Source: Terriglobales bacterium
GTDB taxonomy: Bacteria; Acidobacteriota; Terriglobia; Terriglobales; Acidobacteriaceae
NCBI GenBank assembly: GCA_035543055.1
Contig: DATKKJ010000029.1
Span: 1-50,241 of the forward strand
Length of the DNA stretch: 50,241 nt
Direction of reading: 5' to 3'
The notes beneath the pieces were generated by a model, which was not told the origin of the DNA, ran no database searches, and saw only the letters and a program-made list of their open reading frames with translations. Of this stretch, positions 26,837 through 27,056 are shown in pieces. Made by a program: the position numbers and the translations under genes. The first letter of the stretch is position 1. The number at the start of each line of letters is the position of its first letter.

Positions 26837-26864
26837 TTGACATCGCGCCCCGGTAGCGTATACT
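26837..26864 (+). promoter_or_regulatory. Strong promoter for the metYX leader
   Basis: TTGACA (26837-26842), 16-base spacer, TATACT (26859-26864): one mismatch from the sigma-70 consensus. The expected start point (7-8 bases past the -10) coincides with the A of the leader ATG at 26872, so the leader transcript is probably leaderless. Confidence 0.8.
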
Positions 26865-26871
26865 GGCGGCC

Positions 26872-26958
26872 ATGTTCTTCGAGGCCCACAACACCATTAT
26901 GGCCATGTGCATGATTTGCATGTGCGGCCGTGGTCTGTGGGCAGCCTCGAAGGAATGA
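26872..26958 (+). CDS. Met/Cys-rich leader peptide of metYX (28 residues)
   Basis: ATG at 26872, 28 codons, TGA at 26956-26958. Residues 10-18 read MAMCMICMC: four Met and three Cys in nine codons, which is exceptional against the rarity of both residues. The ATG has no ribosome site, and the promoter puts the 5' end at the ATG itself. A 12-bp intrinsic terminator follows 32 bases after the stop, then metY. This matches the logic of amino-acid leader peptides (trp, his, leu), here reading methionyl- and cysteinyl-tRNA supply for enzymes that make homocysteine and methionine. The function is inferred from arrangement; I know of leaderless poly-Cys leader ORFs in mycobacteria but not of this type in Acidobacteriota. 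Confidence 0.8.
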   Translation: MFFEAHNTIMAMCMICMCGRGLWAASKE

Positions 26959-26990
26959 AGTAATCAGCCGATAAGGCAACAAGTTCCGAG

Positions 26991-27026
26991 CGGCCCACGA
27001 TCACACGGATCGTGGGCCGTTTCCTT
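26991..27026 (+). terminator. Attenuator terminator ahead of metY
   Basis: CGGCCCACGATC (26991-27002) and its perfect complement (27008-27019) enclose a 5-base loop and are followed by TTTCCTTTTT. It stands between the leader peptide and metY. Its 5' arm base GCCCAC (26993-26998) can instead pair with GTGGGC (26937-26942), inside the 3' part of the leader ORF, giving a candidate antiterminator. Confidence 0.85.
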
Positions 27027-27056
27027 TTTCCGGTGAAAACGACGAGAGGAGAAGAC

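Follow-up and report, generated by a model that had tools for sequence, protein, structure and literature searches.

A conserved Met/Cys leader peptide and a putative leaderless transcription attenuator upstream of metY-metX in Acidobacteriaceae

The metY-metX locus and its leader

The window, that is, the whole stretch of 50,241 nt that was analysed (Terriglobales bacterium, contig DATKKJ010000029.1), carries the genes metY and metX, preceded by a promoter, a short ORF and a set of RNA helices. The features are as follows.

26837-26864, forward strand: sigma70-like promoter TTGACA-N16-TATACT (sigma70 scan and similar sites in relatives)
26872-26958, forward strand: leader-peptide ORF of 28 codons plus TGA, probably leaderless by its position
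26875-26890, forward strand: helix segment 1, partner of segment 2 in the protector hairpin (MFE fold, covariation in g9, swap test)
26899-26925, forward strand: putative sensing codons 10-18, MAMCMICMC (density of Met/Cys conserved in relatives)
26936-26954, forward strand: helix segment 2, common to the protector (1:2) and the antiterminator (2:3) (folding)
26983-27002, forward strand: helix segment 3, including the 5' arm of the terminator and forming the 3' side of the antiterminator (folding, comparison)
26988-27022, forward strand: intrinsic terminator hairpin, segments 3:4 (folding, covariation)
27023-27030, forward strand: U-rich tail of the terminator, CCTTTTTC (sequence)
27057-28394, forward strand: metY, O-acetylhomoserine sulfhydrylase / homocysteine synthase (NCBIfam 'homocysteine synthase' above cut-off)
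28397-29521, forward strand: metX, homoserine O-acetyltransferase (one MetX model above its cut-off)

The promoter has its -35 box TTGACA at 26837-26842 and its -10 box TATACT at 26859-26864, separated by a spacer of 16 nt, and it matches the consensus at 11 of 12 positions. A simple sigma70 scan of 26400-27400 gave it as the sole site, with 0.2 expected. The ATG of the leader (26872) lies 7 nt past the -10 box, and the ORF, which is closed by the TGA at 26956-26958, is translated as MFFEAHNTIMAMCMICMCGRGLWAASKE. Its codons 10-18 hold four Met and three Cys. This density is 7 in 9 residues, and a density of at least 6 was reached in none of 2540 dinucleotide-shuffled upstream regions. The promoter, the ORF, the MAMCMICMC stretch, the terminator and the gene pair had all been listed in a first-pass annotation of this DNA, and every one of them is present in the window. 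The gene metX was found beside metY in 36 of 38 loci checked; in L004 and L035, where metY has no adjoining metX, the leader is missing too.

As for the supply of sulfur, the ATP-sulfurylase family PF01747 and the PAPS-reductase domain PF01507 have no match in the assembly of the window (G000) or in that of a congener (G001), and among 14 control genomes PF01507 was matched in 14 and PF01747 in 5. In the window's genome, sulfur may enter mainly as sulfide, through metY.

Conservation of the leader within and beyond the family

Is the leader kept in related bacteria, or might such an ORF arise by chance? Close relatives of MetY (E <= 1e-180) occur in 130 of the 397 sampled genomes of the order, with 131 matches, and all 130 genomes belong to the family of the window. 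Upstream DNA was obtained for 130 of the 131 matches, the remaining one starting at the first base of its contig; three more were not evaluable because of contig ends (L009, L179) or a sequence made mostly of N (L227), which leaves 127 loci. A leader was counted when a short ORF no more than 400 bp upstream had at least 4 Met/Cys in 9 residues. Such an ORF precedes metY in 118 of the 127 loci, and 72 reach at least 6 Met/Cys. At the threshold of 4, dinucleotide shuffles gave 3.9% (n = 2540) and the reverse strand 13 of 127, and by these two controls a chance ORF is ruled out. In the truncated L009, the visible end of the leader reads MCMVCG... A terminator follows in 110 of the 118 loci, beginning 15-43 nt past the leader stop, and this count includes L166 with only -7.7 kcal/mol; seven leaders have no terminator by the rule and an eighth scored -4.9 kcal/mol. 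The search of related metY upstream regions that the first-pass annotation had proposed thus shows the Met/Cys ORF and the terminator recurring across the family. Since related sequences are not independent, the counts overstate the number of events.

Nine loci fall outside the leader definition. In L007 and L165 the Met/Cys ORF heads an operon in which metY is preceded by a further gene, by eye resembling homoserine dehydrogenase. The leader of L190 is thinned, again by eye. In L158, whose leader was read by eye, the Met cluster is lost and Cys codons are retained, together with the promoter and a terminator-like hairpin of -10.4 kcal/mol. The other five (L004, L035, L036, L038, L216) have no leader. 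Four of these show weak hairpins only, from -3.9 to -9.7 kcal/mol, and L216 has a fairly strong one of -12.7 kcal/mol before a run of T's, which could count against attenuation by a leader peptide. A terminator kept after loss of the Met/Cys codons, which the first-pass annotation had named as the pattern that would speak against it, is therefore rare in the 127 loci, being seen in part in L158, where Cys codons persist, and possibly in L216.

The position of the ORF relative to the promoter is also maintained. A promoter and an in-frame start were assigned for 113 of the 118 leaders, the other five receiving no start or promoter from the script. The distance from the -10 box to the ATG is 6-7 nt in 83 of the 113 and 6-12 nt in 105, although the script picks the first in-frame ATG past the best promoter and is biased to short distances. 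The -10 box reads NATACT in 88 of the 113 and GATACT in 62. With 7 nt in the window and 6-12 nt in most relatives, the ORF begins where transcription is expected to begin, as had been claimed, and judged by this distance it is probably leaderless. When the promoter pattern alone was searched over the phylum, the 19 matches obtained in 199 genomes were scattered and uninformative.

How far does the leader extend beyond the family? A search for Cys-Met-Cys-Met-Cys gave 10 matches across 396 genomes of the phylum. Two of them, both from the distant family f43, are leaders that lie immediately upstream of metY and have perfect terminators; a third stands before cysD, and the remaining seven (L367-L372, L374) were judged to be chance. 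In addition, of the 101 genomes outside the family that had a match, 60 were read upstream of metY, 58 of these sequences being long enough. A leader ORF is found in 10 of the 58, two of which (L384, L404) were known beforehand from the pattern search, and 48 have none; about 2 are expected from the shuffle rate. Eight of the ten have a terminator, and these cover f43 (4 of 4 loci, two known before), f91, f80, f54 and f71. In seven of these eight, all except L394, the start lies by eye 8-12 nt past a -10-like hexamer. The leaders MTNATLPTMAMIMRMSMRKLWVRSLAERST in f54 and MATRLGFPRPAMMVMRMLVMRMTSVGGRIVSGL in one of two f71 loci are Met-only. No metY leader was seen in families f32 (14 loci) and f37 (6 loci). 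The same holds for 80 metY loci of other groups, namely Paenibacillus, planctomycetes, Chloroflexi and others with one labelled Pyrinomonadaceae, which are the best 80 of 574 relatives and may lack the nearest genomes.

One might then ask whether the region is a riboswitch or T-box that carries the ORF by chance. SAM riboswitches control met genes elsewhere, and one of the 11 out-of-family metY loci scanned does have one (L113, 2764-2874, RF00162, in a MAG labelled Armatimonadetes), so that the same gene is there under another sensor. In the window, however, a scan against Rfam at gathering level gave no riboswitch, T-box or other leader family, one distant tRNA being the only match, and the segment 26800-27100 gave chance-level matches only (E 1.9 and 2). 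The leader ORF, moreover, is conserved. This explanation is extremely improbable.

Competing RNA helices and a proposed mechanism

The 185-nt leader of the window folds with z = -6.3. Its terminator (26988-27022) is a hairpin of 15 pairs, including a perfect GC/AU core of 12 bp, with a loop of 5 nt and an energy of -27.9 kcal/mol. The antiterminator joins about 26932-26956 with 26983-27002. It had been proposed from GTGGGC (26937-26942) and GCCCAC (26993-26998), and both hexamers are present there, within the antiterminator and the terminator arm; the predicted pairing contains them, but the 6-bp version was too short. A protector helix of 26875-26890 with 26936-26954, absent from the first-pass annotation, encloses the Met/Cys codons. 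Since segment 2 is common to the protector and the antiterminator and segment 3 belongs to the terminator as well, the three segments compete as in classical attenuators. By both sequence and energy, the antiterminator and the terminator exclude each other.

Stepwise folding was done with the ribosome, of an assumed footprint, stalled at four positions ranging from Met10 to Cys18. At all four, the terminator's 5' arm stays paired with upstream sequence up to the point at which its 3' arm has been synthesized. When the ribosome instead sits on the stop codon, the upstream pairing left to the arm is weak (-3.5 to -4.4 kcal/mol) and takes in only 3 of its 6 bases. At equilibrium, the complete terminator is the favoured structure even when the ribosome is stalled. 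Because the finished terminator wins at equilibrium, the switch would have to be kinetic, and the decision is likewise kinetic in known attenuators.

Comparison among genera gives further support to the helices. For the duplex of the leader 3' half with the terminator arm, calculated for the 109 loci with strong terminators, the native mean is -21.3 kcal/mol vs. -16.9 kcal/mol with partners from other genera; the native duplex beats the swapped one in 20 of 21 genera (Wilcoxon p 2.4e-5) and beats shuffles in 21 of 21. Covariation was calculated on two alignments, A1 with 50 of 51 g9 leaders (L040 omitted) and A2 with 44 of 46 others (L221 and L224 omitted), which are restricted to loci whose terminator is strong and whose start lies no more than 12 nt from the -10 box (97 of the 118). 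In the 44 leaders outside g9, the terminator scores 0.449 vs. 0.241 (86.8% vs. 74.7% paired) and the antiterminator 0.246 vs. 0.190 (69.2% vs. 64.1% paired), with none of 500 shuffles as high in either case, and slid versions of the antiterminator score at most 0.150. Both stems therefore covary across genera in the test that the first-pass annotation had proposed. Within g9 alone (50 leaders), the antiterminator and the terminator are 89-91% paired with covariation not above shuffles, and it is the protector helix that covaries there (0.220 vs. 0.174; none of 500 shuffles as high). The protector is present in the window and in g9 and is weaker over the genera: in its swap test (95 loci) the native helix is better in 13 of 19 genera (p 0.016) and fails in 6 of 19. 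Note that the swap, shuffle and covariation controls all leave relatedness in place.

The sequences themselves show which parts are present, that these are conserved and that the helices compete; from this we infer the start site, the stalling, the read-through and the amino acids sensed. In the proposed scenario, transcription would start at the leader AUG or within a few bases of it, and a 70S ribosome would load at the 5' end and trail RNA polymerase. A shortage of charged tRNA-Met (or tRNA-Cys) would make the ribosome stall at codons 10-18, where it would block the pairing of segments 1 and 2, and segment 2 (26936-26954) would then capture the 5' arm of the terminator (26983-27002) as it is made. 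With the antiterminator formed there would be no terminator, and metY-metX would be transcribed. With ample Met and Cys, the ribosome would run on to the stop at 26956 and cover segment 2, the terminator would form, and transcription would end. In an untranslated leader the 1:2 hairpin would leave the terminator free too. We give a probability of about 0.87 to the reading that metY-metX is controlled by a leaderless leader-peptide transcription attenuator with Met as the conserved input and Cys as the second. Ribosome-mediated attenuation had been the first-pass interpretation, and the family-wide leader and terminator, the leaderless position and the covarying helices support it. We take the metY leader to be a real and well-conserved regulatory element, whose proposed mechanism the comparisons strongly support.

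Amino acids sensed and a candidate sulfur regulon

Which amino acid is sensed? In the 118 cores, which are windows selected for their Met plus Cys content, Met occurs in all 118 (at least two Met in 115) and Cys in 115, the two being found together in 115. Met outnumbers Cys in 83 cores, equals it in 17 and is outnumbered in 18, and the mean of the 9 codons is 3.4 Met and 2.4 Cys. Because Met is present in 118 of 118 leaders vs. 115 for Cys, and because Met-only leaders exist in two distant families, Met is apparently the main amino acid that the metY leader would sense; Cys is very likely a second one. The dual Met plus Cys sensor of the first-pass annotation is therefore supported as far as both amino acids occupy nearly all cores, but the two do not appear to be of equal rank. 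The Cys codons of the cores are 156 TGC and 127 TGT, and this split of the third base indicates that selection acts on the meaning of the codons. It also bears on another explanation, in which the ATG/TGC tract serves as a DNA operator, or as RNA that a protein binds, and codes for a peptide only by coincidence. Such a site would fit the motif ATGGCCATG, which is common among the leaders and includes the palindrome ATGGCCAT. However, the Cys third base varies, some genera without ATGGCCATG still have Met/Cys codons in frame with the ATG next to the promoter, and the helices overlap the ORF in a layout that depends on translation. We regard an incidental ORF as very improbable.

Leaders of other composition stand before other sulfur genes. 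Cys-dominated leaders with terminators, e.g., MVRTSSHMCRCCCHTTCMWPEVGRNPR, occur at loci of CysD, ATP-sulfurylase and PAPS-reductase homologs. Two overlapping scans covered 25 and 44 sulfate-assimilation loci. The latter gave 12 sense-strand matches (10 distinct leaders in 9 genomes) and one on the other strand, and most of the 44 loci have no leader within their flanks. In nine hand-picked and hand-trimmed leaders, with the near-identical L323 omitted, the core has a mean of 1.2 Met and 3.9 Cys vs. 3.4 and 2.4 at metY (p 1.8e-6, from non-independent sequences). With Cys-dominated leaders at sulfate assimilation and Met-weighted ones at metY, the input matches the output. The leaders at the sulfate-assimilation genes likely constitute a sulfur leader-peptide regulon.

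Cys-rich or Met/Cys leaders with terminators were noted at L247 (1-1885), L238, L258, L261, L263-L266, L273 and L323, and further at L324, some of L337-L347, L360, L361 and L365. The genes behind these leaders are cysD, a siroheme methyltransferase gene and ATP-sulfurylase/PAPS-reductase loci. Leaders at sulfate-assimilation genes are found in 9 genomes of the order, at least three of them in another family, f2.

A few single loci have other genes downstream. In L252 (1380-2230), a tRNA-Cys gene (1608-1683) lies directly behind the Met/Cys leader MIFSSTMACCCASMCMCMRDGSGMGR and its terminator; 3' of it come a second Met/Cys leader with a hairpin and then a small Cys-rich ORF with no family match, and at 2386-2667 the opposite strand reads by eye as a small protein rich in Met, Cys and His, perhaps metal-binding to judge by resemblance. 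Among 61 related genomes, 11 tRNA-Cys sites in 10 genomes are not preceded by a leader, the match in L317 lying behind, and genome G272 is the only case seen of a leader before tRNA-Cys. In L244 (1300-2625) a Met/Cys leader and terminator precede an ATP-grasp (RimK-like) gene, followed by a gene that by eye resembles an LLM/SsuD-type monooxygenase. In L240 (34-1630) they precede an outer-membrane protein gene of the OMPP1/FadL family with no evident link to sulfur. The window's own genome has 29 ATGTGYATG sites, including the metY leader, the pattern being blind to Cys-only leaders; ORFs that passed a loose filter at four loci there (L286, L292, L306, L309) were judged to be chance. A further search with a leader pattern gave 50 places in 30 loci, of which 14 were read and most of the others lie at metY by their coordinates. 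Eight of the 14 (L229, L239, L242, L243, L245, L246, L250, L251) were judged to be chance; of the places outside the 30 loci, one in G140 is not at metY.

Could the peptide itself, rather than its codons, be what stalls the ribosome? In an arrest peptide, the nascent Met/Cys-rich sequence would stall the ribosome on SAM, homocysteine, sulfide or a metal and work the same RNA switch. Met and Cys side chains could bind metals, and the MAMCM core is often conserved as a block. However, arrest peptides usually require specific residues at fixed positions. Here the peptides vary between genera (MAMCMCM, MSMRMPMC, CCMCMCM, MHMDMPM), and the surroundings and spacing of the core change freely (also RMHMDMPM, MAMIMRMSM, MVMRMLVM) with only the Met/Cys content constant, a content that tracks the downstream pathway. 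An arrest peptide is thus improbable. To a similar degree we doubt a general translation sensor, in which any slowing of leaderless initiation or elongation would cause antitermination with no amino-acid specificity. It would suit a leader that looks leaderless in 105 of 113 loci, and since a shortage of Met also lowers initiator tRNA, a Met leader could partly report initiation. Nevertheless, 22 genera and some distant families retain the Met/Cys content, and the leaders of metY have another Met:Cys ratio than those of the sulfate operons.

How does the preferred reading, an attenuator that senses Met with Cys, compare with known systems? Leader-peptide attenuation is old knowledge. Like the trp, his and leu attenuators, the metY element has a leader ORF rich in codons for the product, a protector, an antiterminator and a U-tailed terminator before biosynthetic genes; it differs in that it would sense Met with Cys and in that its ORF is leaderless by position. 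The SAM (S-box) riboswitch and the Met T-box also control methionine genes at the RNA level, but there the RNA senses SAM or uncharged tRNA directly and has no leader ORF. Leaderless poly-Cys ORFs of mycobacteria were reportedly described by Canestrari in 2020, and a 2010 paper by Lopatovskaya could hold an earlier prediction.

In the accessible text of the papers cited here, ribosome-mediated attenuators are given as known from Proteobacteria and Actinobacteria in 2010, with Firmicutes added (PMC2965389). The leaderless leader peptide metL, MSTTSDRTPATEATTTPGARCMCRRMCAF, is proposed before metNIQ of Streptomyces lividans, and it likewise interleaves Met and Cys (ARCMCRRMCAF) ahead of a methionine gene; it differs in controlling import, in being described for one genome, with neither an antiterminator nor a comparative analysis in that text, and, in the authors' words available, in having no typical Rho-independent terminator (PMC8079986). 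The mycobacterial poly-Cys ORFs are also leaderless and short, with Cys codons, sulfur genes and amino-acid-responsive attenuation in the accessible text (PMC9031893, PMC9094748, PMC13236596), where the Cys leaders are termed translation attenuation (PMC13236596); no conserved terminator hairpins are reported behind the Mycobacterium cys leaders in the accessible part of PMC1262725. Cys codons are contiguous in mycobacteria, whereas the window's leader has no adjacent Cys codons (Cys being 3 of the 9 core codons) and combines a Met/Cys mixture with an intrinsic terminator and a competing antiterminator.

A search of the open-licence literature, with most subscription papers outside it, gave no example of a Met leader attenuator that has both a terminator and an antiterminator, nor any from Acidobacteria, and within it the Streptomyces metL appears, from its accessible text, to be the only published candidate for a leaderless Met/Cys leader. 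The novelty claimed at first thus holds for Acidobacteria within that literature, but since a leaderless Met/Cys leader was proposed earlier for Streptomyces metNIQ, there without a clear terminator so far as its accessible text goes, the metY leader is not a new class.

There is a broader idea, which we put forward tentatively and at somewhat less than even odds: interleaved Met and Cys codons would make a two-input sensor, in which a shortage of either amino acid would cause read-through, and such leaders would form a sulfur regulon read by ribosomes. Its leaders would be Met-weighted at metY-metX and hom-metY and Cys-weighted at sulfate assimilation, with the addition, in single genomes, of those before the tRNA-Cys gene and the ATP-grasp/monooxygenase operon. 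Since sulfate-assimilation loci are preceded by leaders with other Met:Cys ratios, codon composition becomes testable as a setting of the regulon. There is also a puzzle, in that a leaderless AUG needs initiator tRNA-Met and yet the leader would report a shortage of Met. If Cys is indeed the second input, one element would read two amino acids of one pathway. If the regulon is real, Met/Cys leaders would do in these bacteria the work that is done elsewhere by SAM riboswitches, MetJ or CymR.
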